Assembly: GCA_034440615.1 (NCBI GenBank)
Contig: JAOTOM010005129.1
Location: forward strand, 1,008,871 to 1,072,870
DNA length: 64,000 bases
Direction of reading: 5' to 3'
Origin: Ashinkailepas kermadecensis
Taxonomy: Eukaryota; Arthropoda; Thecostraca; Neolepadidae
Position 1 is the first letter of the stretch. The number at the start of each line of letters is the position of its first letter. Below, one piece after another: positions 1,551 to 62,537 of the stretch. The translations under genes were made by a program, and so were the position numbers. The notes under the pieces are model-generated. The model was not told the DNA's origin. It ran no database searches and worked only from the letters and a program-made list of their open reading frames with translations.

Positions 1551-1582
1551 GTTAATTATTTGGGCTTAAAGGCGCATCGACC
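1551..1582 (-). mobile_element. Micro-retroposon, short form (32 bp) with TSD
   Basis: A 32-bp segment lies between two near-identical 15-mers, ACCTTGGGGAACTTA at 1536-1550 and ACCTTGGGGACCTTA at 1583-1597. On the minus strand it begins GGTCGATGCGCC, continues with a TTTAAGCCCAAAT block and ends in a short AATTAAC tail. Closely related sequence recurs at 31367, 11086, 20448, 55058 and 59306. The flanking duplication shows that it was inserted. It codes for nothing and is too short to have its own promoter. Confidence 0.75.
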
Positions 1583-4238: not shown

Positions 4239-4417
4239 ACGGTAATTGGTAATTGGGTTCCTTTACGACACATTCGACTGCTGGGTCACAGAGCATCGCC
4301 AACCTCTCACGCCGGTTGGTCGTGGCAAGACTCGGCAATCCCGCCGGCTGTGGGATTCTAACCCACGATCTTACGATCAAGAGTCCAACTCCTATCGATC
4401 GAGCTACCGCGGCTCCG
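4239..4417 (-). mobile_element. tRNA-derived SINE, family B, with 12-bp TSD
   Basis: Read on the minus strand, this 179-bp element begins with a tRNA-like head (GAGCCGCGGTAGCTCGATCG, an A-box-like stretch) followed by a degenerate B box. It then has the tRNA-unrelated domain shared by all SINEs in the window (the plus-strand phrase CGCCAACCTCTCACGCCG) and a tail rich in AATTACC. It is flanked by GAAACGACAACG at 4227-4238 and 4418-4429. Several head substitutions make it an old, probably inactive copy. A short frame through it is the usual shadow of tRNA-SINE sequence and not a protein. Confidence 0.85.
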
Positions 4418-5916: not shown

Positions 5917-6083
5917 CTTTGGGTTATTACGACGCATTCAACCGCTTGGTGATATAGCGTCGCCAACCTCTCACGCCGATTGGTCGCGGGTGGACTCGGT
6001 AAATTCCGTCGGTTGTGAGATTCGAACCCACAATCTTGCGATCAAGAGTCCGACGCTCTACCAACTGAGCTACCGCGGCCCCC
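5917..6083 (-). mobile_element. tRNA-derived SINE, family B, with 14-bp TSD
   Basis: This is the best-preserved family B copy (167 bp). The minus strand starts GGGGCCGCGGTAGCTCAG, has A box TAGCTCAGTTGG and B box GGTTCGAATC, then the shared domain and a 3' end read on the plus strand as TTTGGGTTATTACGACGC. The TSD AAGCATTGCATGAA sits at 5903-5916 and 6084-6097. The head resembles a tRNA closely enough for an internal pol III promoter to be likely. The clean TSD indicates fairly recent LINE-dependent insertion. Confidence 0.92.
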
Positions 6084-8650: not shown

Positions 8651-8757
8651 TGGTTGGTTTTTACAACGCGTCGACTTCTTTGGCTAAATAGCCTCGCCAA
8701 ACTCACGCCGATTGGTCGCGAACAAACAGCAGACAGGCGAGACTCGATATAAATGGT
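8651..8757 (-). mobile_element. SINE 3' part, truncated
   Basis: Matches the shared 3' domain of the SINEs: plus-strand GGTTTTTACAACGCGTCGAC, then GCCTCGCCAAACTCACGCCG and ATTGGTCGCG, then GACAGGCGAGACTCGAT, which is the B-box side. The A-box half is missing, so this is a 5'-truncated copy. No TSD was seen. Confidence 0.7.
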
Positions 8758-11085: not shown

Positions 11086-11140
11086 GGTGGTGGATTTGTG
11101 CTTTAGGGCGCGTCGACTGCATTGGTCATTTTGCGCCCAT
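11086..11140 (-). mobile_element. Micro-retroposon, long form (55 bp) with 16-bp TSD
   Basis: A 55-bp insert is flanked by perfect 16-mers GGGTGCCCTTGGCAGT at 11070-11085 and 11141-11156. On the minus strand it starts ATGGGCGCAAAATGACC, has GTCGACGCGCCCTAAAG in the middle and ends in a CCACCACC tail. GGGCGC near its 5' end can pair with GCGCCC to make a hairpin with a loop of about 21 nt. It contains no promoter or coding sequence. The perfect TSD makes insertion certain. Confidence 0.9.
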
Positions 11141-16533: not shown

Positions 16534-16690
16534 TGGCCATTGGTTTTTACGACGTGTCGGCTGATGTGACCATGTAGCGTCGCCAATCTCTTGCGCCGAT
16601 TGGTCGAGGGCGAAGAGAGCGACAGGTGGGACTCGAACCCACACACCTTCGGTTGGGGCACGAGCACTACACCAAGACTACTCGACCCCC
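16534..16690 (-). mobile_element. tRNA-derived SINE, family A
   Basis: The minus strand begins GGGGGTCGAGTAGTCTTGG, with an A-box-like TGGTGTAGTG, a B box GGTTCGAGTCC and then the shared domain to a tail read on the plus strand as TTGGCCATTGGTTTTTACGA. Both promoter boxes are recognisable. No clear TSD could be placed. It resembles the copy at 60676. Confidence 0.8.
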
Positions 16691-16785: not shown

Positions 16786-16839
16786 TTAGTTATTTGATAT
16801 TGAGGGCGCATCGACTACAAAGGTCATTTTGCGGCTATA
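16786..16839 (-). mobile_element. Micro-retroposon, long form, diverged
   Basis: The plus strand reads TTAGTTATTTGATATTGAGG, GCGCATCGACTAC, then AAGGTCATTTTGCGGC. This aligns over its length with the 55-61-bp micro-retroposons at 11086 and 20448. Flanks show no clear TSD, so it is probably an older copy. Confidence 0.55.
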
Positions 16840-19026: not shown

Positions 19027-19168
19027 TTGGTTGGTTATTGGTTGTACGACACGTCGACCGTTGAGTCATATAGCGTCGCCAATCTTTCACGCCGATTGGT
19101 CGCGGGCGAAGAGTAGCGACAGGTGAGACTCGAACCCACAATCTTTCGATTGTGAGACGAGCATCTTA
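19027..19168 (-). mobile_element. tRNA-derived SINE, family A, with 13-bp TSD
   Basis: Flanked by GGGGTATCCTCGG at 19014-19026 and 19169-19181. The plus-strand sequence starts TTGGTTGGTTATTGGTTGTA, contains CGTCGACC, then the shared domain and the reverse B box GACTCGAACCC, and stops at GACGAGCATCTTA. The first ~20 bases of the tRNA head seen in the copy at 60676 are missing, so it is slightly 5'-truncated. The perfect TSD indicates a young insertion. Confidence 0.9.
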
Positions 19169-20134: not shown

Positions 20135-20148
20135 TAATGTTGATATGT

Positions 20149-20193
20149 ATATGGCTTAGCGGCGCGTCGACTCCCAATGCCATTTTGCATCCA
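20149..20193 (-). mobile_element. Micro-retroposon, long form, diverged, probable TSD
   Basis: The plus strand reads GGCTTAGCGGCGCGTCGACT followed by CCCAATGCCATTTTGCATCC, aligning with the copy at 11086. Flanks TAATGTTGATATGT (20135-20148) and TAATATTGATGTTG (20194-20207) agree at 11 of 14 positions, consistent with an aged TSD. Confidence 0.65.
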
Positions 20194-20447: not shown

Positions 20448-20508
20448 TTAGTTAGTTAGTTATTTGGGTTTTAGGGCGCATCAACTGCATTGGTTATACA
20501 GCGCCCAT
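20448..20508 (-). mobile_element. Micro-retroposon, long form (61 bp) with 13-bp TSD
   Basis: Flanked by CACAACAGCACAG at 20435-20447 and 20509-20521, a perfect match. On the minus strand it starts ATGGGCGCTGTATAACC, has GCGCCCTAAAACCCAAAT and ends in a CTAA-type tail. Its 5' end falls at the same base as in the copies at 11086, 55058 and 59306. The GGGCGC/GCGCCC pair is kept although the loop has diverged. Confidence 0.9.
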
Positions 20509-31366: not shown

Positions 31367-31400
31367 TGTTTGTTATTTGGGCTTTAGGGCGCGTCGACCA
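31367..31400 (-). mobile_element. Micro-retroposon, short form (34 bp) with 12-bp TSD
   Basis: Flanked by GAGATAGGCGCT at 31355-31366 and 31401-31412. On the minus strand it begins TGGTCGACGCGCCCTAAAG and ends CCCAAATAACAAACA. It begins at the same place as the 32-bp copy at 1551. It sits within LINE ORF1 and interrupts it after the end of the 28-residue repeats. Confidence 0.9.
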
Positions 31401-32201
31401 GAGATAGGCGCTCTCGAGGAGGAACTCAGGCAGACGAATTAGCAGCTGAATGGACTAGAACAATTATCTAGACGGCTCTGTCTGCATATTAATGGAACAC
31501 CCGAGGACCTAAGCGAGTCAATTGGATGTCTGGTGACCGACGTCGGCAAAATGGCCGGTGTGACCATCTTGTTCAAGATCATAGACCGATCACGCAGAAT
31601 CGGCACGGCAAAGGTTGGCACATGTCGCATGATCGTCGCGCGATTTCTCGGTTTCAGAAAGCGCCACGAGCTGTGCAACGCGAGAAACGAGCTCAGAAAG
31701 CTCCGATCGTTCTACAGGTTGAGCGTGTCCGTGGAGTCAGCGAATAACGCTTCCATTTCAGACCAACTGACGCGTGACAACCAACTCACGATCCTAAAAG
31801 CCCGTCAAACGAGAAAAGACGGTAAGATCTTCGCAGCGTAGGCTGGCGTTGGGCGGATGAAGATTCGCAGGAGAGAGGGAGCGCCGACGAAGATCATCTA
31901 ATCCCTGCACGACCTCAGCAAGCTCGTGAATCCGGATGCCCCAGCTGCAGCGCCCACATCATCAGGGGAAGCTGTCATAACCACCAGACGCAGAGGTGGT
32001 AGCAGCTCCGCGCAGTAGCTGAACCGTCTGTGAACGTCCCTCCAGAGACGCATACTCCCCAGCTCTGCAGTCACCGGTGGGCCGTCATTGCAGTCTCCGC
32101 GCTGACGCCAGGGGTCGGCTGGCAGCGCCTCTGCGGCCCGGCGATCACGTGGTCGACCTCCACCCGCCGGTCACTGAGAGCGGACTGACCACAGGCATGG
32201 A

Positions 32202-34278: not shown

Positions 34279-36135
34279 CTACAGCCAGTGAGAGGCCAGC
34301 CCGTCAGAGGACTCGGTGCAGGCAGTGAGAGGCCAGTCCGTCAGAAGACCCGGTACAGCCAGTGAGAGGCCAGCCCGTCAGAGGACTCGGTGCAGGCGGT
34401 GAGAGGCCAGCCCGTCAGAAGACCCCGTACAGCCAGTGAGAGGCCAGCCCGTCAGAAGACCCGGTACAGCCAGTGAGAGGCCAGCCCGTCAGAGGACCCG
34501 GTACAGGCAGTGAGAGGCCAGCCCGTCAGAGGACCCGGTACAGGCAGTGAGAGGCCAGCCCGTCAGAAGACCCGGTACAGGCAGTGAGGGGCCAACCCGT
34601 CGGAGGACCCGGTACAGCCAGTGAGAGGCCAGCCCGTCAGAAGACCCGATACAGGCAGTGAGAGGCCAGCCCGTCAGAGGACTCGGTGCAGGCAGTGAGA
34701 GGCCAGCCCGTCAGAAGACCCGGTACAGCCAGTGAGAGGCCAGCCCGTCAGAGGACTCGGTGCAGGCGGTGAGAGGCCAGCCCGTCAGAAGACCCGGTAC
34801 AGCCAGTGAGAGGCCAGCCCGTCAGAGGACTCGGTGCAGGCGGTGAGAGGCCAGCCCGTCAGGAGACCCGATACAGGCAGTGAGAGGCCAACCCGTCGGA
34901 GGACCCGGTACAGCCAGTGAGAGGCCAGCCCGTCAGAGGACCCGGTACAGGAGTGAGGGCGGCGCAGGAGGATACAGGAGTGAGAGGCGTCAGGGACCCG
35001 GTACAGGCAGTGAGGGGCCAGCCTGTCAGAGGACTCGGTGCAGGCAGTGAGAGGCCAGCCCGTCAGAAGACCCGGTACAGGCAGTGAGAGGCCAGCCCGT
35101 CAAAGGACTCGGTGCAGGCGATGAGGCCAGCCCGTAAAGACCCGGTGCAGGCAGTGAGAGCAGCCCGTCAGAGGACCCGGTACAGGCAGTGAGGGGCCAG
35201 CCCGTCAGAGGACTCGGTGCAGGCAGTGAGGCCAGCCGTAGGCAGGCAGTGAGAGGCCAGCCCGTCAGGAGGACCCAGGACTACAGGCAGTGAGAGGCCA
35301 CAACCCGTCAGGAGGACCCGGTACAGGCAGTGAGAGGCCAGCCCGTCAGGAGACCCGATACAGGCAGTGAGAGGCCAACCCGTCGGAGGACCCGGTACAG
35401 CCAGTGAGAGGCCAGCCCGTCAAAAGACCCGGTACAGGCAGTGAGAGGCCAGCCCGTCAGAGGACCCGGTACAGGCAGTGAGGGGCCAGCCCGTCAGAGG
35501 ACTCGGTGCAGGCAGTGAGAGGCCAGCCCGTCAGAAGACCCGGTACAGGCAGTGAGGGGCCAGCCCGTCAGGAGACCCGGTACAGGCAGTGAGAGGCCAG
35601 CCCGTCAGAGGACCCGGTACAGGCAGTGAGAGGCCAGCCCGTCAGAGACCCGTACAGAGAGGCCAGCCCGTCAGGAGACCCGGTACAGGCAGTGAGGGGC
35701 CAGCCCGTCAGAGGACCCGGTACAGGCAGTGAGAGGCCAGCCCGTCAGAAGACCCGGTACAGGCAGTGAGAGGCCAGCCCGTCAGAGGACCCGGTACAGG
35801 CAGTGAGGGGCCAGCCCGTCAGAAGACCCGATACAGCAGTGAGAGGCCAGCCCGTCAGAGGACCCGGTACAGGCAGTGAGAGGCCAGCCCGTCAGGAGGA
35901 CTCCGCCCGTGTACAGGCAGTGAGAGGCCAGCCCGTCAGAAGACCCGGTACAGGCAGTGAGAGGCCAGCCCGTCAGGAGACCCGATACAGGCAGTGAGAG
36001 GCCAGCCCGTCAGAGGACTCGGTGCAGGCAGTGAGAGGCCGGCCCGTCAGAAGACCCGGTACAGGCAGTGAGAGGCCAGCCCGTCAAAGGACTCGGTGCA
36101 GGCGATGAGAGGCCAGCCCGTCAGAGGACCCGGAC
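34279..36135. repeat. 37-bp tandem array, about 50 copies
   Basis: Units of the form CAGTGAGAGGCCAGCCCGTC plus AGAGGACCCGGTACAGG. Variants alternate (AGAAGACCCGGTACAGC, AGAGGACTCGGTGCAGG, GGAGACCCGATACAGG), hinting at multi-unit duplication. Irregular units occur at about 34950-35000, 35117-35165, 35220-35290 and 35640-35660, where bases are missing or rearranged. It is the largest regular array in the window and has no long open frame. Confidence 0.95.
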
Positions 36136-42918: not shown

Positions 42919-43138
42919 TGTAGTCGCTGGGTCCGAACAATGCAGTCGCCGGGTCCGAACCGCAAACACGCATGACAGCTTTCAGTCCAACCCGCACGGG
43001 CGGACCGCACGTCCGCCCGCGGCCAGCTTTATTCTCACACTCCCGCGGCCGGGGATATTTCGGCGCGAAAGCAACAAGCCAATCGGAAGGCACGCGTCGC
43101 CTTGGCGACGCGCGGGACCATGACGTCACCCGTCTACA
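42919..43138 (-). repeat. 3' LTR of gypsy element
   Basis: 220 bp with the TG...CA ends of LTRs. On the element's strand it carries a TGACGTCA palindrome near the start and AATAAA (plus-strand TTTATT at 43028-43033) as a likely polyadenylation signal. It differs from the 5' LTR at three bases. A GC-rich hairpin (GGGCGGAC/GTCCGCCC) follows the AATAAA. Confidence 0.97.
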
Positions 43139-43743
43139 CTCTATAAACCTTGAAAAAGGAGTGCCCACGCACCAAACACTCACGACCAAGACACGACACC
43201 GGAGCGAAATGGCACACGATGTATCGCCACGCTGTTCGAATTATCGCCACAAGTGGTCGTCAGCAGTATGGCAACGGGTTTATCCGCAACACAAAGACTG
43301 ATGTCACGACTGCGCAAGACCGTCGCAAGTCTTAATAGGGTACGCACTAGATTTCAGCACAAGGCATCTAGCATTCGCCATAGGCGCCCCAGCAAGCGTT
43401 CCACAATCCGCACAGACATTACACAGTTTCACAATGTGGTGTAGACCCAAAAACAAACCGCCCATCCACTAACGCATCCCCGGGTGGGATCCTCATTTCC
43501 GCCCAACGCTAGTTATAACAATTGGTACACTAGCATCTTATTCTAACATCGCGCAACCTCACATCATACACGCGTTTACACTGTAACTAACGACTATTCT
43601 AACAACACCCAACCAGGAGCTCGCTTAACCAGACTCGATCGTCGCAACACAGTTGGCGGTACACTCGGGAGAAGTCCAGGCCCGGGGTCATCTGTCTCTG
43701 ACCCCACTCCCTCCACGAATGGGACAACATCAGGGCTTTCTAT
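43139..43743 (-). other. Untranslated segment between pol and 3' LTR
   Basis: About 600 bp without gene similarity on the element's strand. The bases next to the LTR (CTCTATAAACC on the plus strand) do not make a good polypurine tract. On the opposite strand CTATAAA at 43141 is followed by small frames rich in Arg and His. These could be antisense reading by chance; I assign no function. Confidence 0.5.
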
Positions 43744-44208
43744 TCATAAGCTAACCGTAGTGCCCGTCAACGCCGATTCTCTCCTGACAGCGGGGCACCC
43801 ATCTCTTTCTTCCCTCTGAACGGAAGTTGCTTGGGTGGGACCCTGATCGCCGCTGTTACTGTCGTCACCACCAGCCGCTAACGCATCCGCGCCGAGATCC
43901 CCACTTTCCCCAACGACGCGAGTTCCGATAGCGGTGCTTCCGGAGGAAGGATGTGAACCCCCTTCGCCTCCAGATTCCAGCACGCCAGGTCGGAATATGC
44001 CACATCGAACGGGTGGTGGGGGTGACCCAACCCCGGACGCCGGGGCGAGCGGCTCACCGACGCCCTGCCTCTCATCATCCACACTCAAGCCACGTCCTGC
44101 TGGTGTGTCTGTTACACCAGCTGCACATCCAGGCACTGCATCCCTGGTCACCTGAGCGGTCATTGGTTGCAGTCTGTTATGATCGTAAATTATCGGATAC
44201 GTCTGCAC
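43744..44208 (-). pseudogene. pol C-terminal end after frame break
   Basis: The first residues, MQTYPIIYDHNRLQPM, fit the end of the integrase C-terminal module (the conserved VHYNRLKP-like motif), and a Gly-, Ser- and Pro-rich tail of about 135 residues follows. It lies one frame away from the upstream integrase frame, which ends at 44177, so the two must once have been joined. The switch lies in roughly 44200-44260. A long low-complexity tail is common in gypsy Pol proteins. Confidence 0.7.
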
Positions 44209-46186
44209 GGGAGCAGAAAGACGATTCTAATGCATCACCCACTCGGCTTAGGACTGTTGCCGGCTTCCAGGGGCGGACAAACTTATAATCCTGACCTCTC
44301 GGCACAACACTCTTATACAACAGGACCTGATCACCAGCCTGAAAGGTATGCTCGCTCAGCTTCTTTTCGTAGGCTCTCTTGTTGCGCGCGTGTCGCCTAT
44401 TCGACGCAGCGATCCCAAACTCTCTCGCTTTGCGCAGACTAGTACACAGGTTGTCAACGTACTCGGACACCGTCCGAGATTTCGCCACCGTAGGCGCGTG
44501 CAGATTCGCTTCCGCTGAGAGCCGGGGCTCTCGAGCGAACATGAGAAAGTAGGGCGAATAGCCGAGCGACGAATGCACCTGGGACCGATACCCGAGCATC
44601 AACAGCGGCAGATGAACATCCCATTCCGAATGATTGTCATCTAGATATCTCGCCAACATCGTGATGATAGTCCGCATTATCCTTTCGACCTTTGAGTTAC
44701 CTTCGGGGTGGTACGCGGAGATCCGTGATTTTTCAATGCCGAGGATACGGCAGGTTTCCGTCATGACTGACCCTACAAAATTCGCGGCGCAATCGGAGTG
44801 CAAGCGCCGTGGACAGCCGAACCGAGCGACAAACTCGTTCACAATGGTCGTCGCCACTGTCGTCGCTTTCATATCCGGAAGAGGATACACCTCACACCAG
44901 CGGGTGACGTGATCACACACAACCAACAGATGCTTGTTCCCGCTTCCGGTAATCGGCAGACCGGTCAAAAAGTCAATGGAAATCGTATCAAAAGGTTCAT
45001 CTGAGTAGCGCTCACCAAGGGATGCACGTGGCCGCGGGATCGGTTGACTGTGTAAGGTGCACTTCTGGCACTTGCGACAAAACTCCTCGGTTTCAGCCGA
45101 CATCTGACTCCACCAGAACCGAATCCTCGCCTGGGCCAACAATTTCTCGGCCCCAAAATGTCCTCCTGTTGGACCAGCATGAAGCGAGGTTAGTACTCCC
45201 GGAACCAGCTGCCTTGGAACCACCAGCTGCAACCGCTCGCTCTCACCAGCGCGTGGCTTGTACATTCGATACAAAATGCCATCAATCAACTGCAGTCGTC
45301 TCCACTGCTTAAACAGTGGCCTAGAGGAACCTGACACCGTGGTTCGTCGCGGCTTAACTCCAGCCGACAAATGTTTCCCAATTTCACTTATCCTAGGGTC
45401 CTTATCCTGTTCCTGTCGCAGATACCTCAAGGACCAGGAGGAAGCATCCACCTCGCGAACTGACTCAGCTACTTCGCCGGTGTGTGTCTCCGCATCCACT
45501 CTGTCTGCCGGACGCCTACTCAGCGCGTCCGCCACCGGATTCTGCACACCCGGGCGAAACACTATCTCATAATCAAACTCGGACAAGATCTCAAACCAAC
45601 GAGAGAGCATGCCGGAAGGCTGCTTGAAGTTTATCAGCCATTGCAGGCTGGCGTGGTCGGTACGAATCCTAAACTTACGGCCCAACAAATAGTGCCTAAA
45701 CTGCTGCACGAACAGAACGCACGCTAGCAACTCTTTACGAGTTGTACTGTAATTACGTTGAGAATTGGACAACTTCCGACTCGCATACGCCAGCGGTTTC
45801 TCTTCGCCACCCTGTTCCTGCAGGAGAACGGCTCCAGCACTCAAGTCCGAACAATCACAGTCCAGAATGAACATACCAGCGTCCGCGCCGAACCTGGGCA
45901 GCGAAATCACAGGCGAAGTCGACAGCGCCACCTTCAGTGCTTCGAACGATGCTAGCGCCTCCTCTGACCAACTAAACTTTACGTCTTTCCCCGTCAGCGA
46001 AAACAGCGGCGCTGCCATCTCAGCGAACGATCGCACATACTTCCGAAAGAAAGATGCTAGCCCTAGAAAACTACTCAACTCTTTTTGGGTGCGTGGAGTG
46101 GGCCACTCAGCCAGCTGCCGGATCTTTTCAGGGTCAGCAGACAAGCCCTCGGGGGTCAATACATGACCCAGAAATGTTACTTCCGT
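44177..46186 (-). pseudogene. pol: RT end, RNase H and integrase
   Basis: Continues the reverse-transcriptase frame directly after a nonsense codon at 46187-46189 (TGA where the family usually has Arg, probably a CpG transition). Counting from 46159, RNase H has LDCDCSDLSAGAVL (about 100-112), RKELL (142), RTDHASL (167) and ADALSR (210), so its acidic residues are present. Integrase has the zinc motif HAGPTGGH (327-334) and CRKCQKC (361-367), then D396, D456 and E492 with 35 residues between the last two, i.e. an intact D,D-35-E. The GPY/F-like FVRPWKPATV follows before the frame breaks. These enzymes degrade RNA in the hybrid and join cDNA to the genome. Confidence 0.92.
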
Positions 46187-46660
46187 TCAGAACAACTCGC
46201 ACTTTCCCGGATTCAACGTGAGACCTGCCTGCTGTAGCCTTTCCAACACAGCATCCAGCTTAGTCAGGACATCATCAAAGTCTGCTCCATGCACTATGAC
46301 GTCATCAAAATAGTTCACGCACGACAGGGGACGCAAATCACCTAAAACTATATCCAGCAGACGCGCACACGTAGACGGGGCCGACTTGCACCCGAATGGC
46401 ATACGAACAAACCGATGTGCACCGAATGGAGTCACAATCGTAGTCTTATCTCTATCCCGTTCATCAATGCTTACCTGAAAATACGCATTATTCAAATCTA
46501 GGACACACCACATCTTCGATCCTGCCAAGATCTCAATAGTGTCGTCAATCCTCGGAATCGGATATGACGAGGGCGTCGTCACAGCATTCAACTGTCTCAT
46601 GTCAGCGCACATCCTGTACTGCCCAGACTTCTTCCTTACCAAACATATGGGGAAGCCCAA
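46187..46660 (-). pseudogene. pol: reverse transcriptase core
   Basis: Residues run LVRKKSGQYRMCADMRQLN, then LDLNNAYFQV with the first catalytic Asp (about residue 55), VRMPFGCKSAPST, and YFDD (117-120) with the Asp pair. The segment ends at CELF and the TGA at 46187. It lies one frame away from the upstream protease/RT-N frame; the switch is in a C-run near 46645-46650, consistent with loss of one base. The catalytic residues are all present, so decay is recent or the break is a sequence error. Confidence 0.92.
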
Positions 46661-47844
46661 CCCCCTCCACCAGACTCCTCGAGAACTCCTTGTTCCACTA
46701 ATGTCTCGATTTGCGCCCTCACCTCGTTCCGCAAATGGGGTGGTACACGCCGGGCCGCCTGACTCACAGGCGCATGGTCACCAGTATCAATCGTATGCGT
46801 CGTCACCGTGGTGTGGCCCAAATGACCATCAAACATCGACTTATGTTTGTCAATAACTCGTCTGACCGCCTCCTTCTGTACGTCTGACAATGGGGACTTA
46901 CTCAGGTCAATATGCCCACTTGGTTCTACGTATTTCGAAGCTGGCTCGCCGTCACTACCCCAGGAGTACAAGCTGTGCTCGCCGAACCCCACCTCAAGTT
47001 CGCCAATTTCTGAGCGTCTAGGAATGCTAATTGGCTCCGTCGTAATATTACGGACGACAAATGGGACAGAACTCCCTACTACATCGACCACTGCTGGAAC
47101 AAACTCGAGACCACAAATGTTCAACGACGGCTCCACTACAGCTGAGCCTATGTAGTCACAATTGGGCACCCATGCCCTCAGAACTGTTTCCTCACCCGGT
47201 GCAATTATGACACTACTCGACATCACCAAACGACCAACTGACACGGCCTCCGCCGACACCGAGCGAACTGACTCAGCCGGGGTTAATATCAATCTCCTTC
47301 TCTTCATATCAATCACGCATGGACAAGCTCGCAGAAAGTCAAGCCCCAGTAGGCACGGCACATCTATGTGGTCCGACACGAAAACACTAATGTTCACTGG
47401 CATTCCGTCAACATGGAAGCACAGAGTGGCTTTGCATGCCAGTGGCAGCTGATCTCGTGACGCCGTCTTGGCCCGCACTGCAGTCTTACGTAACCTCGGG
47501 GAATTTGGCAAAAGGTCGAACGCTGCTTGGTTCAGAATACTAATGTTGCTGCCTGTGTCCAGCAGACACTTACAGTCGACTCCCGAAATCTTAGCCACAA
47601 ATGTCATGTCCTCGTTCAGTGAAACCCATCGGTCGCCTGGGTCACCGTCGGTTATGTTCGCTTCCCTCCCGGTTTCTCTCCAGGTCCCTTTGTCCCTTCC
47701 GGAATCACATCCTCTCAGCCCATTCCTCACGGCCTTTGACTGGGTCCGGATCCCCCCATGGCCGCTCGGGTGGACCCGCGGAAGTTTCCCAAATACCTCC
47801 CACACACTTCTGGCACATGCCCCTGACAACCGCATTTCGGGCAC
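46636..47844 (-). pseudogene. pol: protease and RT N-terminus
   Basis: Opens in the -1 frame relative to gag and overlaps it by 118 bp. Counting from the start of the open frame, the aspartic protease has LLDTGSNISIL (active DTG at 96-98) and VPCLLGLDFL (163-171). A linker of about 150 residues leads to the RT N-terminus with EQGVLEES and WASP, where the frame ends. It has no start codon of its own and is reached through the slippery site at 47784. The protease would cleave the Gag and Gag-Pol chains. Confidence 0.92.
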
Positions 47845-48545
47845 CTAACATCTCGCTTGTCACAGTTATACCTCATGTGACAAGGCTGGCCACAGGCGTA
47901 ACACTCGCGCGGCCTACGCACAGGTCCACTGGACCTGAGTCCAGTCTGGACTTGGAGCTCTAATACGGCTATCCTCTTCTCTAACCGAGCAACAGCTGAC
48001 GCTTCAGGCTGGGCCCCCCTTGCAGCCATCTGGCGCACCGGCTGCGTCACGTGCCGAGCGGCACTGCACACGTGACGTACTTTTGCCACTGCATCCTCAA
48101 AAGTACTCGCTCCCGACGCGACAACAGGCGAGTACAGGTCGCCTGGAAGTGCCGACAGGAAATGGTTGTATAGCAGACCCTCCAATGCCTGTCCTGGGAA
48201 TCCTTGAGACACCATCTTCTTAAGCCGTATCACAAACGCATCTAGCGACTGGGATGGGTCGTACCTGAGATCCATAAGGGCCACATGGTGGTCCACAGAG
48301 CTACCACTGCTGAAACTCCCCTTCAGGCCGAACTCAACTTCACTATAAGACTCCTTCTGTCGGGCACCAAGGGCATCGAACGCATCCCTTGCGATTCCTG
48401 TTAGACACAATGGCAACATATCCAACTTCCGGCTCTCGTCCCAATCATGAAGCCTACTGAACCTCTCATAGTCGTCCAAAAATCTCTGCACCGAGCCACC
48501 TCCGTCGAAGCTTGGCATACCAACCATAGCAAACCTTGGCTCCAT
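47727..48545 (-). CDS. gag: Gag protein, capsid and nucleocapsid
   Basis: Intact 272-residue frame from the ATG at 48543-48545; an upstream in-frame extension has no ATG. The N-terminal two thirds is a Ty3-type capsid region (FDGGGSVQRFLDDYERFSRL, WDESRKLDMLPLCLTGIARD, LDAFVIRLKKMVSQGFP). Two CCHC zinc knuckles follow near the C-terminus, CYACGQPCHMRYNC and CPKCGCQGHVPEVC, each CX2CX4HX4C. The protein would form the particle and bind element RNA. Unlike pol it is unbroken, so this copy could still supply Gag. The C-terminus overlaps pol, and frameshifting there sets the Gag to Gag-Pol ratio. Confidence 0.93.
   Translation of the reverse strand: MEPRFAMVGMPSFDGGGSVQRFLDDYERFSRLHDWDESRKLDMLPLCLTGIARDAFDALGARQKESYSEVEFGLKGSFSSGSSVDHHVALMDLRYDPSQSLDAFVIRLKKMVSQGFPGQALEGLLYNHFLSALPGDLYSPVVASGASTFEDAVAKVRHVCSAARHVTQPVRQMAARGAQPEASAVARLEKRIAVLELQVQTGLRSSGPVRRPRECYACGQPCHMRYNCDKRDVRCPKCGCQGHVPEVCGRYLGNFRGSTRAAMGGSGPSQRP
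47784..47790 (-). promoter_or_regulatory. -1 frameshift slippery heptamer GGGAAAC
   Basis: On the element's strand the gag frame reads TTG GGA AAC, so the heptamer G GGA AAC is in exact X XXY YYZ register. A shift of -1 here leads straight into the open protease frame. The following bases (CCGCGGG-TCCA-CCCGAGCGG) can form a stem-loop, although the spacer to the heptamer is only two bases, shorter than usual. The same heptamer is used at gag-pro of some retroviruses. Confidence 0.75.
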
Positions 48546-49141
48546 TCTGCTAGTTCCAATAGGCTTCAACTATAGACTTGTGAACACGGCTTATACTAGT
48601 CACTCGACACTTCCAATATCCAAACGCGTCTGGCTTGACTGAATCACGCCACGCGCCTCATTAAACCGACATATATGCCTCGCCTTGACAAGGCACTCAC
48701 GGTTCCGACGCTGAGAATCGCACGCAGGAGTTGCGAGTCAGTCCTGCGTAGGGCCTTAGCCGTGTCCTCGAGATGCCACGTTGCTACGCGGAGTCGTTAC
48801 GTCATCTCAATCAGCTGGCGCGCAGACGAGTACTGGAGGCGCCTGCTAGTCTGTCGTTGCTAGGCGACCACAGCACTCACCAGAACCTGTATCTGGCAGG
48901 GCCGCCATCTTGCTCGCGACCCCCAAACTCATCACTTGCACGCAATCCTTCTGTGTAAGTGGCTGCACTCACGCGTCACACCGAGCCAAGTCATAAGTCA
49001 CTACACACCGTTACGACAGGATTCCGACGACGCGAATCCGCTCCTCAGTTCTCAGTCCGCCACAACACTCAATCGAGTCATCTGGCTTCCGTCGTGCGAG
49101 TCAGACGATCCGAAAGCTGTCAATCCGACCGCTGCCACCAA
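48546..49141 (-). promoter_or_regulatory. gypsy leader with primer-binding site
   Basis: The 596-bp untranslated leader between the 5' LTR and gag. One base after the LTR the element's strand reads TGGTGGCAGCGGTCGGAT (complement of 49123-49140). TGG is complementary to the CCA end of tRNAs, so this is the likely minus-strand primer site. I do not identify which tRNA. Confidence 0.7.
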
Positions 49142-49361
49142 TGTAGTCGCTGGGTCCGAACAATGCAGTCGCCGGGTCCGAACCGCAAACACGCATGACA
49201 GCTTTCAGTCCAACCCGCACGGGCGGACCGCACGTCCGCCCGCAGCCAGCTTTATTTTCACACTCCCGCGGCCGGGGATCTTTCGGCGCGAAAGCAACAA
49301 GCCAATCGGAAGGCACGCGTCGCCTTGGCGACGCGCGGGACCATGACGTCACCCGTCTACA
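49142..49361 (-). repeat. 5' LTR of gypsy element
   Basis: 220 bp, TG...CA ends, matching the 3' LTR at all but three positions. It contains the promoter region of the element; TGACGTCA and a GATTGGC (CCAAT-like) box lie in the first 70 bases on the element's strand, and AATAAA corresponds to plus-strand 49251-49256. No convincing TATA box is seen on the element's strand. Confidence 0.97.
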
Positions 49362-49365
49362 TATG

Positions 49366-51450
49366 CAGAACTTGTCTTGTGAACACCTTAAAGCACAATA
49401 ATAGCAAATAAAAGAAGAAAAAGACCAGGCTATGTTGGGTTACATACATTGTAGTATGCTAGGTTAACTTAGATTAGATGCAGTTTATTAAAAACGGAAA
49501 AGGGTAAATTTATACTTGAAGGTGTCTTAGGTGCAATATAACCCACTGGGGTTGACGCACCCTAAAACCCCAATAATCATCATGAACTCTTGGAATATTT
49601 TCCAATACAACACTTATGAACGTGATTAAGACGATGTGGACGATTCATTTCCGCTGGAAATGCTTACTTTTCAGTTCTTGAGCAAAGTAACGCCAACAAA
49701 AGGCTTTGGTTTAGGTAATATAGCAGTTAAAATAGATGGAACTGCCTAACCTGTCGTAGCATAACCTCCCTTTGAAGAAAAAATCGCTCCACGCAATTGA
49801 GAAAATCAGAAACAATTTTGTCCAAAAATTTTCACCTTTATAATGCCTAACCCAGCATACCTTAGCTTGCTTCTGACGATAAACAAGTTCCAATTCAGCT
49901 AAAAAAATATCAAAACTTTTTTAATTAATTTTCCAACTTAAAAATCCTAACCTAGCCTGCAGACTGAGAGGAGTCATTCATTCCTAAACAGCTTCAGTTC
50001 TGCTCTGCTAAGATTGGTGATAAAAAGATAGTGTCGATGACACAATTAATTGTGTCCATGAATATCGATTTGCATCCTTTTGTGGAGGCCACAGCCGCAC
50101 AAATTTTGAACTTGCCCTCCCCATGTTGATTCCCCCCCCCAAAAAGAAGTATGCTAGTTTTACTCTGGCATCGTGAAAAAATCACAATTTCTAATGTTTG
50201 AAAATAAGGTGGGCGAAATACGATGAGTTTTCAGTTGTGGAGGGAGAGGCCTGGTGCATTGACACCTCTCCCCCCCCTCCCACCCACCAAATGTTTTTTT
50301 TCCTAAAAAAATCGACACTCGTCATTATACGTTGACCACATGCAAAGAACTGCAATGAGTGCACATGCAAAGCACTGCTGCTGCCTGTTTGCATCATATT
50401 GCACATCCCAAGTATGTTTGGCTACACACTTCCATACTTCAGTGGTGGCAGCTCAAAGCTCCTCATTACTTTCGTCCTGGCAGTGATGTGTTTCTGGATA
50501 CATGCCGCTAAATCTGCAGAGCTGGGTACTAGTACATGCAGTGCTCATCTCACTGGTAAAAGGATCTTCTGTTGTGTTGGTGCTCGGTGACTGTTTCCGT
50601 AGCAACCTATGACATAAATAAAGATGTGGGATACCGGTTGGCAGTTCCTGGATTGATCACCTGCTATGCGGTGATAGTGAGAACCGAGTAGTGTACGAAT
50701 GCTAACAAAGCCCATCACTTCCACTTAGTTTCCACTGCCAGTTCGTCTTCTGCTGTGCGCTGATGTGGTCGAGTGCGCCTTTGGCTGCGCCCGGCGGCCG
50801 AGCCGACAGCTCAGATACCTCATCTAATGGCCGTGTCCCGTCCACAACAGGTGCTGGCGTCGGGGCCAGCGTCGGCTAAGATCAGCATGGTGTCGTGACC
50901 TGGTGAGGCGATGCACGTCACTCGCTGCTGGCGGCGGCTGTGCCCACTCGCGTTCGAGAGCTGCCGCCACCCCTCCCAGATCGGAGCAGGCTTTTTGGTG
51001 TGCTGTGGCGCCTCTATTGTGGGTCTCAATTGCTGTTATTGAAATATTTAAGCTAGTTGGACCTTGCTGGCACTTTGCACAGTAAAGCGTGGCTTTGGTC
51101 TTTCAATAAATGTCTTCCTTGATCTAGTGTTTTTCTTTCGTAAGAGAGGGAACCGTGGCTGCGCCTCTGCACCTCACCACACGTTAGCTTTGACAATGCA
51201 TAGTACTATTTGCGCACATATATTTTACCCTCAGCGCCACACCTGCGCAAGCCATAGGATATTAATTCATGTTTATCGTAGATAGGAATTTTTAATATCC
51301 TTATTTCACCAGAACTCAATGGCACTACCTTGTATGCATGCAATGCATGCCGGCCATTTACAGATATCCAGGGCAATTGATCGGACCCAAGTGCGACCTG
51401 GTCACCAGACCGGCCGGACCAGGGCTTCGGTCCCAAAATGTTGGCTGCCT
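49366..51450. other. Unannotated AT-rich DNA
   Basis: No gene recognised. C-runs lie at 50131-50141 and 50270-50280. A CpG-rich patch occurs at 50750-50960. Confidence 0.4.
49547..49580 (+). mobile_element. Micro-retroposon, short form, diverged
   Basis: Plus strand GGGGTTGACGCACCCTAAAA followed by CCCCAATAATC aligns with the short form (GGTCGACGCGCCCTAAAGCC, CAAATAAC). No TSD was visible, so this is a tentative older copy. Confidence 0.45.
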
Positions 51451-54714: not shown

Positions 54715-55045
54715 CAAGACAGCACATATGGACAATACTGTGAACACGTTTATGGGCACGCGGGTTGCCCGGGGAAAAACATCAGAACCCATTAGGGTTA
54801 GAACACATCAGAGGAGCAACCGGTATGTACAGGGGCGCAATGGGATACATCGGGGGCGCCCGGAATGTCAAGGGGCGACAGTGAGGTAGATTTTGGACCG
54901 CCCGGCGCTGACAGCGTCAGGCGCCAGTACGATCTAAATAGCTGGCATATTGCACGGGCACCCAGGCGCAACTGTAAAATATATATTGGAGCGCTCGCGC
55001 TGTTAGGGGTCCCAGTGGAACATTTCTAGGGGCGTCCTGGTTATC
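54715..55045. other. Unannotated DNA with GGGCGC-rich phrases
   Basis: Loose GGGGCGC/GGGCGCC phrases recur every 25-30 bases (54833-55150), possibly one more decayed GC-centred repeat. No gene. Confidence 0.45.
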
Positions 55046-55057
55046 ATGAGCGCCGGT

Positions 55058-55115
55058 GGTGGTGGTAGATTTGTACTTTAGGGTGCGTCGACTGCATTGG
55101 TCATTTTGCGCCCAC
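55058..55115 (-). mobile_element. Micro-retroposon, long form (58 bp) with 12-bp TSD
   Basis: Flanked by ATGAGCGCCGGT (55046-55057) and ATGGGCGCCGGT (55116-55127), 11 of 12 identical. On the minus strand it begins GTGGGCGCAAAATGACC, continues GTCGACGCACCCTAAAG and ends in a CTACCACCACC tail. It is closest to the copy at 11086, which also has a CCA-type tail, so the two form a subfamily. Confidence 0.88.
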
Positions 55116-55364
55116 ATGGGCGCCGGTATGACACACTTAGAGGTCATCGGCGTGCCGGGGGGAGGGGGCCAGTAAAAATAAATAGCGACACGAGGGACTT
55201 TGAGGGGGAGAGTGACGTTGGGTGTGGTGGGCGCCATGATAAATAAAGACACCCGAGCTGACGGGGGGGGGGGGGGGGGGGTCATAGGACACATTTAGGA
55301 ACAAGGGCTTGCAGGGTCGCCATTTGGACAAGAATAGCGATGCCCGAGGCGTAAGCACACAAAC

Positions 55365-55984: not shown

Positions 55985-57985
55985 ATATAATCAGGTCTCT
56001 ATAAGAGACGTAGAACAGAGATTGGGAGGAGGCCACCAGGACGAAAAGGAGGCCCAATGACAAAAAGGAGGCCCCCATGACGAAAAGGAGGCCCCCAGGA
56101 CGAAAAGGAGGCCCCAAGACGTAGAACAGAGATTGGGAGGGGGGCCTCCAGGACGACAAGGAGACCCCAAGGACGAAAAGGAGGCCTCCAGGACGAAAAG
56201 GATGCACCCAAGGACGAAAAGGAGGCCCCCAAGACGTAGAACAGAGATTGGGATGAGGTCTCCAGGACGAAAAGGAGGCCCCAGGACGAAAAGGAGTCCC
56301 CAGGACGAAAAGGAGGCCCCCAGGACGAAAAGGAGGCCTCCAGGACGAAAAGGAGGCCCCCAGGACGAAAAGGATTCCCCAGGAAGCAAAGGTGGCCCCC
56401 CGAGACGTAGAACAGAGATTGGGAGGAGGCCCCGGGACGAAAAGGAGGTCCCCAGGACGAAAAGGAAGCCCCCAGGACGAAAAGGATGCCCCCAGGACGC
56501 AAAGGAGCCCCCCCAAGACGTAGAACAGAGATTGGGAGGAGACCCCCAGGACGAAATGGATGCCCCCAAGACGTAGAACAGAGATGGGAGGAGACCCCCA
56601 GGACGAAAAGGGGCCCCCAGGACGAAAAGGATGCCCCCAGGACGAAAAGGAGGTCCCCAGGACGAAAAGGAGGCCCCCAGGACGAAAAAGAGGTCCCAGG
56701 ACGAAAAGGAGGCCCCCAGGACGAAAAGGATGCACCTAAGGAGGAAAGGAGGCCCCCAAGACGTAGAACAGAGATTGGGATGAGGTCCCCAGGACAAAAG
56801 GAGGCCCCTGGACGAAAGGAGGCTCCCGGACAAAGGAGGCTCCCAGGACGAAAAGTAGGCCCCCAGGACGAAAAGGAGACCCCTAAGACGTAGAACAGAG
56901 ATTGGGAGGTGGCCCCCATAACGAAGGAGGCCCCCAGAACGAAAAGGAGGCCCCAGGACGAAAAGGATACCCCAGGACGCAAAGGAGGCCCCAAGACGTA
57001 GAACAGATATTGGGAGGAGGTCCCCAGGACGAAATGGATGCCCCCAGGACGCAAAGGAGGCCTCCAAGGCGTAGAACAGAGATTGGGAGAAGGCCCCCAG
57101 GACGAAAAGGAGGCCCCAGGACGAAAGGATGCCCCAGGACGAAAAGGAGGCCCCCAGGACGAAAAGGATTCCCCAGGAAGCAAAGGAGGCCCCCGAGACG
57201 TAGAATAGAGATTGGGAGGAGGCCCCCGGGACGAAAGGAGGTCCCCAGGACGAAAAGGAGGCCCCCAGGACGAAAAGGATGCCCCCAAGACGTAGAACAG
57301 AGATGGGATGGGAGGAGACCCCCAGGACGAAAAGGGGGCCCCCAGGACGAAAAGGATGCCCCCAGGACGAAAAGGAGGGCCCCAGGACGAAAAGGAGGCC
57401 CCCAGGACGAAAAGGAGGTCCCCAGGACGAAAAGGAGGCCCCCAGGACGAAAAGGATGCACCCAAGGACGAAAAGGAGGCCCCCAAGACGTAGAACAGAG
57501 ATTGGGATGAGGTCCCCAGGACGAAAAGGAGGCCCACTGGACGAAAAGGAGGCTCCCAGGACGAAAAGTAGGCCCCCAGGACGAAAATGAGGCCCCTAAG
57601 ACGTAGAACAGAGATTGGGAGGTGGCCCCATAACGAAAAGGAGGCCCCCAGAACGAAAAGGAGGCCCCAGGACGAAAAGGATACCCCAGGACGCAAAGGA
57701 GGCCCCAAGACGTAGAACAGATATTGGGAGGAGGCCCCCAGGACGAAATGGATGCCTCCAGGACGCAAAGGAGGCCCCCAAGGCGTAGAACAGAGATTGG
57801 GAGAAGGCCCCCAGGACGAAAAGGAGGCCCCCAGGACGAAAATGAGGCATCTAAGACGTAGAACAGAGATTGGGAAGTGACTCCAGGACGAAAAGGAGCC
57901 CCCAGGACAAAAAGGAGGCCCCCAGGACGAAAAGGATGCCTTCAGGACGGAAAGGATGCCACCGAGACGGACAAGAAGCCACCCA
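55985..57985. repeat. 20-bp GGCCCCC array with higher-order structure
   Basis: About 100 units of AGGACGAAAAGGAGGCCCCC, with C-run length varying from 3 to 5. A distinct unit, AGACGTAGAACAGAGATTGG, recurs every 100-180 bases and marks larger repeats; a segment of several hundred bases at 56510-57060 recurs in similar order at 57280-57800. Very long minus-strand frames (up to 589 codons) come from the repeat and its length variation, and give a glycine/proline/serine/phenylalanine-rich product with no support as a gene. Confidence 0.95.
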
Positions 57986-59480
57986 GGTTAGACGAAAAGG
58001 CTTCCGATGGGTGGCAGGATATTCTTAATTTGGAAAACAAGGCCCCCAAGACGGAAGAGGATGCCCTGTAATATAAAATTAAGACATGATAGGGGAGACT
58101 TCTCCGGACGCAGGAGGGGCCCCCAGACGGGTAAGAAGGTCTCCTGAGGAATGAGAAAAGGCCACCGAGACAAGGCAGATGAGGCCCATATTTTGGAAGA
58201 GGAGGACCCTAGAAGAGAAGATCTATGACTAGGACGCAAAAGCACCCTGCCAAGAGGATAATGAGGCTCCAAACACAGATGAGGAGGCTCCCATGACGTG
58301 AGAGAAGGCCGCTAATTTGAAAAAGGAGTCACCTAGGAGAGGATAGGAGTCCCCAGAAATCAAGAGAGTGTCAAAAATGTCACGGAGGAAACCGGGATTG
58401 CAAAGGAGGCCCCAATACCGGAAGGGAGGCCCCAAAATATGAGAGGAGGCCCTAAGACGGAAAAGGAAGCCAGTGGATATGAGATGAGGTTTCGGAGACG
58501 CAAAAGCAGGCCCCAAACGGGTGAGGTTCCACCGAGATAGAAAAGGATGATCCAGAGACGTGGCAGGAGGGACCTAATTCGGAAGAGAACGACACAAGAT
58601 TGGAAATGAGACCCCATGATGAACGAGGAGGCCTCTAAAATAGGAGAGAAAGGCCATTGGATAAGAGAGATGGCTCCCAGGCGGAAAAGAAGGCTCGAAG
58701 ACGGCTCAGAAGGTCCCCGGGAAATAACAAGGCCACTGAGATAGGAAAGGTTGCCAGTAATTTGGCGGAGGAGGCGCCTGGAAGAGAAGAGGAGTCCACC
58801 AGGAGATAAGAGACCAGCCTTAAGATGGGTAAAGATCGAACCCACACGCAGAGCAGGAGGCCACCAAGACGTGAGCGGAGGCCCCTAATTTGAAAAAGAA
58901 GGCCTCTAGAAGAGAAATGAGGCCCCTGCCGGACTCGAGAGTAGTCCCTCAAGAAGGAGTAGGTCTCCAGGACCAAATGAGGCCCCGAAGACCGGAAAGA
59001 GTTCCCAGGAAATGAGAGGAGGCCCTTAAGATGGGAGTGGTAGCAGGCATGGAAGGAGGTGAGGTTTCCAAAATTGAAGATCCCCTCAAGACGGGTAAGG
59101 CTTTGCCAGGATAGAGGAGGAGGCCCACGAGGCGTGGCAGGAGGCCCCTAATTTGGCAGAGAATGCCCCTCGAAGATGAGAGGAAGCACCATGCCATGTT
59201 AAAGGGGCCCCAGAATGCAAGAGGAGGCCCTCCAAGACGGTAGAGGGGGACCATTGAATATGGAGGAGGATAGGACACACAAGGAGACGTCGAAAACCGG
59301 TAAAATGGGCGCTATATGATCAACATGGTCGTCGCGCCCTAAAGCCCAAATAACTAACTAACTAACGAAAACCGGTAAAAAGACTCTAGGAAATGAGACG
59401 AGACCCTTAAGACGCGACAGGAGGCCTATAATTTGCAAGAAGAAGCCTCTAAGAAATAGTAGGAGTCGTGTCGGGGTACT
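57986..59480. repeat. Diverged ~21-bp GGCC array
   Basis: Continues the array with older, more varied units. Unit types AGACGTGGCAGGAGGCCCC, TAATTTGGCAGAGAATGCCCC and AGAAGAGAAATGAGGCCCC recur in that order several times (58180-58220, 58560-58600, 58870-58930, 59130-59180), showing three-unit higher-order repeats. No gene. Confidence 0.8.
59306..59366 (+). mobile_element. Micro-retroposon, long form (61 bp) with 14-bp TSD
   Basis: Flanked by perfect GAAAACCGGTAAAA at 59292-59305 and 59367-59380. The insert starts TGGGCGCTATATGATC, has GTCGTCGCGCCCTAAAGCCC and ends AAATAACTAACTAACTAAC. GGGCGC/GCGCCC pairing is kept. This is the only TSD-bearing copy on the plus strand and the clearest example of the complete unit, and it lies inside the repeat array. 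Confidence 0.92.
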
Positions 59481-60284: not shown

Positions 60285-61262
60285 ACGTAAGCACAGTGTG
60301 ACCACAAACACCGGATCGGTATCCGAAAAAAAATCAAGATGGAGCCCTCCAAAATAAGGAGGGATTCCAGCAACTAAATGCCAAGGTAAAAAAAATGACT
60401 CTGGAGTACCGAACATATTATCAGATAGATGCCTTCACAAATTGGGTACGGCACCGAAAAGCATACCGAATCTCGAACAATCGAGGTGGAATACAAAAAC
60501 ATGGCGCTAGGGGCTCGAGAAATCAGGCCGGGATTCGGACTTTTTTTTAAAATCAGAAAAGATTCACAAAAATCGCATTGAGCCCAGAAAACTGGGGTTG
60601 GGTCTCCGGAACCACGCGCCTGGGCGCGATAAGTCGCTCTGGGACCCAGAAGCATCGCACCGAAGCCCCAGCATTCTAGGGGACGAGTGGTCTAGGGGTA
60701 AGATGCTCGTCTCACAATCGAAGGGTTGTGGGTTCGAGTCTCACCTGTCGCTATTCTTCGCCCGCGACGAATCGGCGTGAGAGATTGGCGACGCTACATG
60801 ACTCAACGGTCGACGTGTCGTAAAAACCAATAACCAAGCCCCAACATTGTACTGGGGCCCCACAAGTGTGCGTCAGAAGCCCAAAATACACACATTGGGA
60901 CCCTAAGAGCACAACGGGGGCCAAAAATACAACTGGTCCTCCAAAGCGCACAGTGTCACAAAAAGTGACAGGGCCTTAGCACATGCGTTGCAGCCATAAA
61001 TAAACATACCGGGAGGTCTAAAAAATACACCGGAAGCTCTCAAGGCACACAGGGGTCATGATAACGCGCAAGAGCCTGAAAAAGTGGCTGGGGCCGCAAA
61101 AGGCAACATGGTTCCAAAACAAACAAAAAGACCGGGAGCTGAATAAACACATCGGGACCTTCGAAAACGCCCTGACACGTCAAAAAAAATCATCGGTGCA
61201 CAAAAATGCAACAAACCCTAGAACGAGCAGGGGGTTCGAAAATGTTTTAGGTCCCCTAACAA
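60285..61262. repeat. Large inverted repeat, left arm
   Basis: About 800 bp (excluding an inserted SINE) that match, in reverse complement, 61738-62537. Marker phrases in both arms include ACCGGATCGGTATC, GGAACCACGC, CCTGGGCGCGATAAGTCGC and AGACCGGGAGCT. The arms show clear divergence, so this is an old duplication. The spacer is about 475 bp. Confidence 0.88.
60676..60835 (+). mobile_element. tRNA-derived SINE, family A, complete, with 13-bp TSD
   Basis: 160 bp flanked by AAGCCCCAGCATT (60663-60675) and AAGCCCCAACATT (60836-60848). The head GGACGAGTGGTCTAGGGGTA holds the A box, the anticodon-loop region resembles tRNA-Val (CTCACAA), and the B box is GGTTCGAGTC. The body follows with CGCCCGCGACGAATCGGCG and the tail ends CGTAAAAACCAATAACC. 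The matching site in the other inverted-repeat arm is empty, which fixes the element boundaries. Both pol III boxes look intact. Confidence 0.93.
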
Positions 61263-61737
61263 AAATGGATTGGAGCCATAATACACACTCATAGACCAAA
61301 AAAGACGCAACGGGTCCCAAAAAAAAGAACGCTGAGGCAGGGCCTCGGTTCGGTAGCCAATCTGGGAGGATAGCAGCAAAGATATAAAGTGCATCAAAGC
61401 TCAGCGGAATCCGCATTTCATAACTACCAGAAAATGTGGCAAGTAGGAAACTAATGATCGAATTTAATCAATCGACTTTTCGCAGCGAACGCCCATACGA
61501 AGCATTCCATCACGACAAATATGGCGCAAGTCTATCATGTGGCAGCAATTAGCAAAACGCAGAAGGCCTAGCAGAAACCGTAGCATCGCACGAAGTGTGG
61601 CGAATGCACCGAATGCGAAAGATGGGTGTGCACGTGCACTGACGTTGCCGTCGTGGCGACCGGGTGCTATGAACTGGAATGCCTGAAATTGTGAAATGTT
61701 ATATTTTAAAGTGGTGGGTAATACAATTTAAATTGAA
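61263..61737. other. Spacer of the inverted repeat
   Basis: 475 bp between the arms, not GGCC-repeat-like after about 61340. No gene or element recognised. Confidence 0.5.
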
Positions 61738-62537
61738 GTTATGGGCCTAATACATTTTCGAAACCCTGCTCGTTTTAGGGTTTTGTTGCTTTTTTTGTGC
61801 ACGGAGTATTTTTTTACGTGTCAGGGCGTTTTCGCAGATCCCAATGTGTTTATTTAGCTCCCGGTCTTTTTGTACGTTTTAGAACCATGTTGCCTTTTGT
61901 GGCCCCAGCCTCTTTTTCAGGCCCTTGTGCGTTCTCATGGCCCCTGTGCGCCTTGCGAGTTTGCAGTGTATTTTTTTAGGTCTCCCGATGTTTATTTAGG
62001 GCTGCAACGCATGTTTTAAGGCCCTATCGCTTTTTGGGAGACTCGGCGCGCTTTGGAGGGTTAGTTGTATTTTCGGGCACCGTTGTACTCTTAGGGTCCC
62101 GCTGTGTATATTTTGAGCTTCTGACGCAGTTGTGGGGCCCCAGTACGATTTTGGAGCTTCGGTGCGATTTTTCTGGGTCCCAGCGCGACTTATCGCGCCC
62201 AGGTGCGTGGTTCCGGAAACCCAACGCAAGTTTTCTGGCTCAACGCGATTTTGTGATTTTTTTGTTTGTTTTTTAAGTCCGAATCCCGGTCTGATTTTTC
62301 GAGCCTCTGGCGCCATGTTTTGCATCCCTCCTCGATTTTTCGAGATCCGGTATGCTTTCCGGTGCCGTACGCAATTTTTTAAAGGCATCTGAAAATAACA
62401 TGTTCGGTGCTTCAGAGCCATTTTCCTGACCCGGACATTTATTTGTTGGAATCCCTCCTTTTTTGGAGGGCTCCAGCTTGATTTTTTGGGATACCGATCC
62501 GGTTTTTGTGGTATAGGTGTAATTTCAGCAGTGTGCG
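61738..62537. repeat. Large inverted repeat, right arm
   Basis: Reverse complement of 60285-61262 without the SINE. The site that corresponds to the SINE insertion reads GAAGCTCCAAAATCGTAC in reverse complement, one copy of the target with no duplication. Confidence 0.88.

Follow-up and report, generated by a model that had tools for sequence, protein, structure and literature searches.

Hundreds of very short insertions in the Ashinkailepas kermadecensis genome contain just the terminal hairpin of a LINE and its tail

Hundreds of 30- to 60-letter insertions in this genome hold nothing but the last hairpin of a LINE and its tail, and most of them have fixed starting points. These insertions, called minis here, represent a variant form of LINE retrocopying and are probably small by-products of an element type that is already known, not a new independent element. 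The LINE's own enzyme is likely to have inserted them, and on balance we favor the explanation that they are LINE-made retrocopies whose target-primed reverse transcription (TPRT) mostly ended early, at fixed points of the hairpin. The dominant starting point is either the base of the hairpin or the inner edge of its 5' arm, depending on the subfamily.

Minis in the window and in the genome

All seven copies named in the initial annotation were found in the window, by which we mean the whole 64-kb stretch of DNA analyzed. They are listed below with their target-site duplications (TSDs), followed by two extra hairpin copies; letters such as B and E denote subfamilies.

59306..59365, plus strand: focal mini, E-like; hairpin at 59306-59339, then tail
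59291..59305, plus strand: 5' TSD of the focal mini, CGAAAACCGGTAAAA (15/15 match)
59366..59380, plus strand: 3' TSD of the focal mini
20448..20508, minus strand: mini; TSDs 20435-20447 and 20509-20521, CTGTGCTGTTGTG (13/13)
11086..11140, minus strand: mini of B type with tail CACAAATCCACCACC; TSDs 11070-11085 and 11141-11156, ACTGCCAAGGGCACCC (16/16)
55058..55114, minus strand: B-like mini; TSDs 55045-55057 and 55115-55127 (12/13, one mismatch)
20145..20193, minus strand: diverged mini, named 20149; weak TSD 20135-20144 and 20194-20203 (9/10)
31367..31400, minus strand: short mini with an internal hairpin start (TGGTCGA); TSDs 31355-31366 and 31401-31412, AGCGCCTATCTC (12/12)
1551..1582, minus strand: short mini with an internal hairpin start (GGTCGA); TSDs 1536-1550 and 1583-1597 (14/15, one mismatch)
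49528..49574, plus strand: extra mini-like hairpin copy; covariance model E = 9.8e-9, no TSD found
16792..16837, minus strand: extra mini-like hairpin copy; covariance model E = 2.8e-6, no TSD found at the boundary

The sizes first given for these copies, 32 to 61 bp, are correct, and TSDs of 12 to 16 bp that are perfect or differ at one base were found, as described, in six of the seven, along with the weaker repeat suspected at 20149. Starts at or within one base of TGGGCGC were likewise seen, the left TSD ending 0 to 1 nt before this motif in the copies at 59306, 20448, 11086, and 55058. The copy at 20149 begins at the equivalent point, there reading TGGATGC, and both short copies (31367 and 1551) begin at (T)GGTCGA. 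The focal hairpin has a fold of -18.3 kcal/mol (z = -4.0). Five minis and four SINE tails were combined in a covariance model, which added four hairpins to the window at E ≤ 0.0012, namely those at 49528 and 16792 and the tRNA-SINE copies at 8654 and 4251. The units had been described as lacking a promoter, and none was recognized in the window ones by Rfam, by ARAGORN, or by inspection for box motifs; Rfam (gathering threshold) and ARAGORN gave no match in any window mini, their matches being confined to the separate SINE described below. The internal Pol III promoter (tRNA, 7SL, or 5S) that characterizes SINEs was not found in the window minis.

Several other repeats share the window. A Ty3/gypsy element at 42919-49361 has 220-bp end repeats that are 99% identical, and its pol lies on the minus strand, split over several frames; the names among the 120 relatives listed are mostly those of animals such as spiders. 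Long minisatellite arrays with units of 37, 20, and 44 bp occupy 34280-36133, 56027-57960, and 27549-28212, respectively, and the 20-bp array falls where AT skew is strong, at 56-60 kb. A multicopy inverted-repeat element, likely a small DNA transposon, is found at 6882-7173, 33467-33587, and 33939-33998. At 60300-62500 there is a large imperfect palindrome with arms of up to 168 bp that are 78 to 96% complementary, one of which holds the SINE at 60676.

Genome-wide, the hairpin-mini pattern is real and well supported. The search proposed in the initial annotation was run over 908 Mb and returned 3,382 exact matches (1,677 + 1,705), and none (0 + 0) when the pattern was reversed; in a degenerate scan, the window had five matches and its reversed sequence none. 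In a fetched set of loci, a TSD ends within 6 nt of TGGGCGC in 30 of 44 flank-distinct full hairpins, compared with 85 of 1,892 locus pairings in which the downstream flanks were swapped. The other 14 of the 44 comprise, by eye, seven long LINE-type copies and seven unclear or diverged ones. Chance or alignment artifact is ruled out by the reversed pattern, the reversed-sequence scan, and the swapped flanks. The fetched set, partly hand-chosen for diversity, consists of eight loci plus 40 further places; it was used to test TSDs and to look for LINE copies, and no rates were taken from it. The retroposed look noted at the outset was borne out, with TSDs mostly of 10 to 17 bp and simple-repeat tails. 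The genome counts are inflated, since one mini of the TACATGGCCAATGAAGTTGAT type rides in many copies of a larger repeat (loci L044 and L046 to L051); this single insertion accounts for 7 of the 52 matches in the fetched loci, although this abundant hitchhiking type was mostly skipped when they were chosen. The exact patterns had no match in prokaryote genome contigs or in viral contigs, and a loose hairpin pattern matched 43 viral contigs, as may happen by chance with so short a pattern.

The link to LINEs and to a tRNA-headed SINE

Sequence comparison indicates that the minis are not free-standing, since long LINEs encoding reverse transcriptase (RT) and RNase H end in the same hairpin and tail. 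The window alone shows no longer copies with this 3' end, but the genome holds them. Loci L060 and L081 have 405 bp of upstream sequence in common at 94% and different downstream flanks, and L072 and L074 have 152 bp in common upstream at 91%. Related LINE coding sequence is contained in L066 (which is L065+5539) and L077, and the L066 frame reaches its stop codon 36 nt upstream of the hairpin. In L065 a frame of 882 aa is open and contains RVT_1 (E = 7e-35) and RNase_H (E = 2e-8) domains; it ends at a stop codon 104 nt upstream of the L065 hairpin. An endonuclease domain was seen only in full-length protein relatives. These LINEs may belong to the I group, whose ORF2 encodes an endonuclease, an RT, and, at its C-terminus, an RNase H. 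Long LINE copies exist with B, C, E, and G hairpins, and F is found only with a 28-bp extension (L084).

The minis carry two marks of LINE-derived retrocopies, flanking TSDs and a 3' end common to an RT-encoding LINE. The view of them as autonomous-looking, independent units is not supported, nor is self-amplification; LINE copies end in the same hairpin and tail. The initial annotation had also reasoned that widely scattered 5' ends continuous with a longer SINE or LINE would make them ordinary truncated copies; continuity with a longer element, the LINE, was found, but the starts cluster and are not widely scattered.

The window also holds a tRNA(Val)-headed SINE family that ends in a related hairpin, with the following copies.

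60676..60835, plus strand: tRNA(Val)-headed SINE with 3' hairpin at 60788-60832; TSDs 60663-60675 and 60836-60848 (one mismatch)
5917..6083, minus strand: tRNA-headed SINE with related 3' hairpin; TSDs 5903-5916 and 6084-6097
19027..19168, minus strand: 5'-truncated tRNA-SINE; TSDs 19014-19026 and 19169-19181
4239..4417, minus strand: tRNA-headed SINE; TSDs 4227-4238 and 4418-4429
16539..16690, minus strand: tRNA-headed SINE, 5' limit approximate; no TSD found
8654..8720, minus strand: 3' portion of a tRNA-SINE with approximate 5' limit; no convincing TSD

The 3' end of this SINE aligns with the minis in an architecture of a six-pair outer stem, an internal loop, and a four-pair inner stem, and downstream of the hairpin both have TAAAnCC and then a short repeat tail. 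Across five minis and four SINE tails, 94.4% of 90 cells are paired, compared with 27 to 54% in slid controls, and changes on both sides occur at 4 of the 10 hairpin pairs; since the structure was drawn from the same nine sequences, this covariation is supportive, not proof. These nine sequences have the conserved 3' stem-loop with compensatory changes that characterizes the tails of stringent-type LINEs. Folded singly, four of the nine have z < -2.5, two SINE tails have -1.3 and -1.7, and the minis at 55058 and 20149 and the SINE tail at 16533 fold near background.

Mini and SINE meet at one locus, L148 (G000:C904:28498-28855), where a B-type mini is interrupted in its apical loop by a tRNA-SINE that has no evident TSD of its own. 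The SINE, 159 nt long, is a 96% match to the window SINE, and the TSD of the mini (CCAGACTATAATTCTT/CCAGACTGTAATTCTT) is intact. This arrangement is either a TSD-less SINE insertion or a double template switch.

Start points and their possible causes

Start points were read from a sample anchored at its 3' side on GTCGACGCGCCCTAAAGC, which is placed after the loop, so that upstream starts are visible and the sample is not selected by 5' end. This anchor has 1,479 matches in the genome; the first 73 among 100 matches listed, which come from low-numbered, short contigs (11 to 68 kb), gave 71 distinct copies after removal of two duplicates. Of these, 26 continue into LINE sequence and 45 are minis. 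At least 28 bp of further upstream sequence is present in 25 of the 26 long copies; the remaining one, L112, was assigned by hand, its boundary at -5 being the only one between -3 and -27. Relative to TGGGCGC, the 45 mini starts, read by eye, fall at -2 to 0, the hairpin base, in 21 cases, at +1 to +8 in 18, and deeper in 6, the last including L148, although it is a base-start mini split by the SINE. A TSD score of at least 9 near the boundary was found by eye in 35 of the 45 and not in the other 10. Among the longer copies, L084 reaches exactly 28 bp upstream and is flanked by a TSD of 13 bp, and L100 is TSD-bounded about 161 bp upstream, with a 5' part unlike that of other B-type LINE copies. 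The L100 element (G000:C528:5136-5494) spans about 210 bp and joins an unrelated GC-rich 5' piece to a B-LINE 3' end, perhaps as a LINE-derived SINE.

Non-random 5' ends had been claimed for the window copies, and they hold more widely: 21 of the 45 sampled minis start within 3 nt of each other, as do 283 of 365 B-type copies genome-wide by nested counts. Most insertions of the B lineage, and likewise of the E lineage, consist solely of the tail module, with fixed 5' ends that differ between the two. Base starts were seen in 14 of 18 sampled B minis versus 1 of 13 E minis (P = 2e-4, post hoc), with L068, L134, and L148 placed in B from their tail and loop, and L093 and L110 placed in E from two bases only. 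Exact counts over the whole genome, made as a test of this difference, bear it out: for the arm edge, GGGCGC, and TTATGGGCGC they are 365, 320, and 37 in B and 202, 63, and 38 in E; these nested counts are lower bounds, in which mutated copies are lost and insertions inside larger repeats are included. They divide B into 283 base, 45 inside, and 37 long copies and E into 25 base, 139 inside, and 38 long (chi-square = 237, 2 df), a mutated arm being scored as inside because the classes are inferred from nested patterns. The sampled ratio of minis to long copies is 18:3 in B and 5:20 in G (hand count; Fisher P = 2e-5, post hoc), and the G and B hairpins have identical predicted folds and cDNA energies; the G-type copies counted number 145.

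Hairpin-only copies of the tRNA SINE, anchored at the same hairpin point, numbered 0 of 20 sampled, versus 45 of 71 for the LINE type (P = 1e-7), so a hairpin of this kind alone forces no stop. The 20 are from the first 22 matches listed, two on hitchhiking-repeat contigs having been excluded, and they represent 19 insertions, since L152 and L170 have a downstream flank in common. A TSD was found at the full 5' end in 13 (in L167 and L171 by the second-best match). Among the rest, internal deletions cut L159 short, L158 has a truncation at -76, L153 is ambiguous, and four copies lack a usable TSD.

In the early-stopping explanation, the LINE protein would pick its template by the 3' hairpin, as stringent-type LINEs do. 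Synthesis of cDNA would begin in the tail and halt after part or all of the hairpin, possibly through folding of the nascent cDNA into the same hairpin and its release from the template; this step is the least certain. The resulting insertions of 30 to 60 bp would be dead ends. Read by eye, the 13 junctions of inside-start minis total 12 nt of microhomology, a mild excess (P = 0.007 by chance), and the junctions of B minis show no excess (5 nt over 12, P = 0.37). The predicted cDNA folding energy is -8.1 kcal/mol for B, -7.5 for E, and -3.1 for the abundant, control-sampled SINE form, whose lack of minis fits its weak cDNA fold; that fold is weak plausibly because G-U pairs of the RNA turn into mismatches in the cDNA. 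Two other SINE copies in the window are predicted to fold at -8.6 and -5.0 kcal/mol, yet are not minis, and snap-back of the cDNA, as modeled, fits neither the -8.6 form nor the difference between B and G. A separate observation comes from L083 (G000:C389:33507-39545), where, on the minus strand near 3001, one possible TSD (GAGCAGCT) encloses a hairpin that is partly repeated at the 5' end, a pattern suggestive of an enzyme that jumped between hairpin templates or re-copied one.

Tentatively, minis could instead come from a discrete hairpin RNA, a LINE transcript cut or trimmed to 50 to 60 nt and copied to its end by the LINE enzyme; a 5'-3' exonuclease that stops where protein is bound to the hairpin is one conceivable trimming agent. 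B starts are precise at (A)TGGGCGC, with little microhomology, and so resemble run-off at an RNA end, not a random stop. The ratio of minis to long copies depends strongly on lineage despite the same hairpin fold, and a SINE with a related hairpin but no minis is expected if it is the LINE RNA that gets trimmed. Most E minis, however, start inside the stem (139 of 202), an unexpected stop for exonuclease trimming; no promoter was recognized in the units; and long LINE copies carry the B, C, E, and G hairpins as well. A discrete RNA is possibly most applicable to the B type, which in the strong form of the idea would be an amplifying hairpin-only SINE. That B is a hairpin-only retroposon, a headless RNA of 50 to 60 nt derived from the LINE tail and copied end to end, is rather doubtful.

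It is improbable that minis are just ordinary, very short LINE copies with random 5' truncation. Their continuity with LINE 3' ends speaks for such truncation, as does one TSD-bounded copy that ends at -28 (L084), but the 21 base starts occupy three positions (P = 3e-14 if starts were uniform over 49 positions), the preferred start differs between subfamilies across the genome, and L112 is the sole boundary from -3 to -27. Pure random truncation was rejected because of these clustered, subfamily-specific 5' ends. Independent mini-SINEs with their own promoter and a borrowed LINE tail are very unlikely: B minis do outnumber long copies by about 9:1 in the exact counts, but neither a Pol III box nor a tRNA-like head was recognized, and the sequence is LINE tail only. 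Small DNA transposons, suggested by GGGCGC/GCGCCC hairpin arms that form inverted repeats, are extremely improbable, being contradicted by the TSDs of 10 to 17 bp, the simple-repeat tail outside one arm, the absence of the 5' arm from many copies, and a 3' end in common with LINE copies.

Significance and comparison with known systems

Where LINE reverse transcription ends, and why, is an open question. The B and E hairpins differ by few bases, yet their end points differ, and with hundreds of insertions ending at hairpin landmarks these natural variants would allow comparison. The LINE recognition hairpin and tail may suffice for insertion of a template. Moreover, TSD-flanked repeats of less than 60 bp can be LINE tails, and standard annotation would probably miss them. 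If the hairpin-only reading of the B type were true, it might be the smallest amplifying retroposon family, and a hairpin alone would be enough for mobility in nature. Among the titles and abstract openings listed from open-access papers, none concerned hairpin-only LINE retrocopies.

In zebrafish L2 LINEs, a 3' stem-loop is reported to be required for retrotransposition and bound by the LINE protein (PMC4176376), and a review reports the sharing of tails between SINEs and LINEs in many groups (PMC3747384). Like the tails of UnaL2, ZfL2-1, and ZfL2-2, the ends described here combine a 3' hairpin with a short tandem repeat in both a LINE and a SINE, the latter in related form. Unlike in those systems, most insertions in some lineages consist of just the hairpin and tail, with 5' ends at hairpin landmarks, the LINE encodes RNase H, and recognition of the hairpin is putative. 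Minis resemble 5'-truncated LINE copies in having TSDs, a common 3' end, and a missing 5' part, but they are 30 to 60 bp long, whereas the review gives 100 to 1,000 bp for truncated members (PMC3747384), and their starts are clustered and subfamily-specific, not scattered. With tRNA-derived SINEs they share small size, non-autonomy, flanking TSDs, and an end in the same kind of hairpin and short repeat; unlike these SINEs, they lack a tRNA head and no promoter was recognized in them, and sampled copies of this genome's own tRNA SINE, in contrast to minis, are nearly all full length. Tailless retropseudogenes, which derive from truncated tRNA or SINE RNAs and are mentioned in that review (PMC3747384), are comparable as short retroposed RNA pieces, but they lack a tail, whereas minis keep the tail and lack the head.
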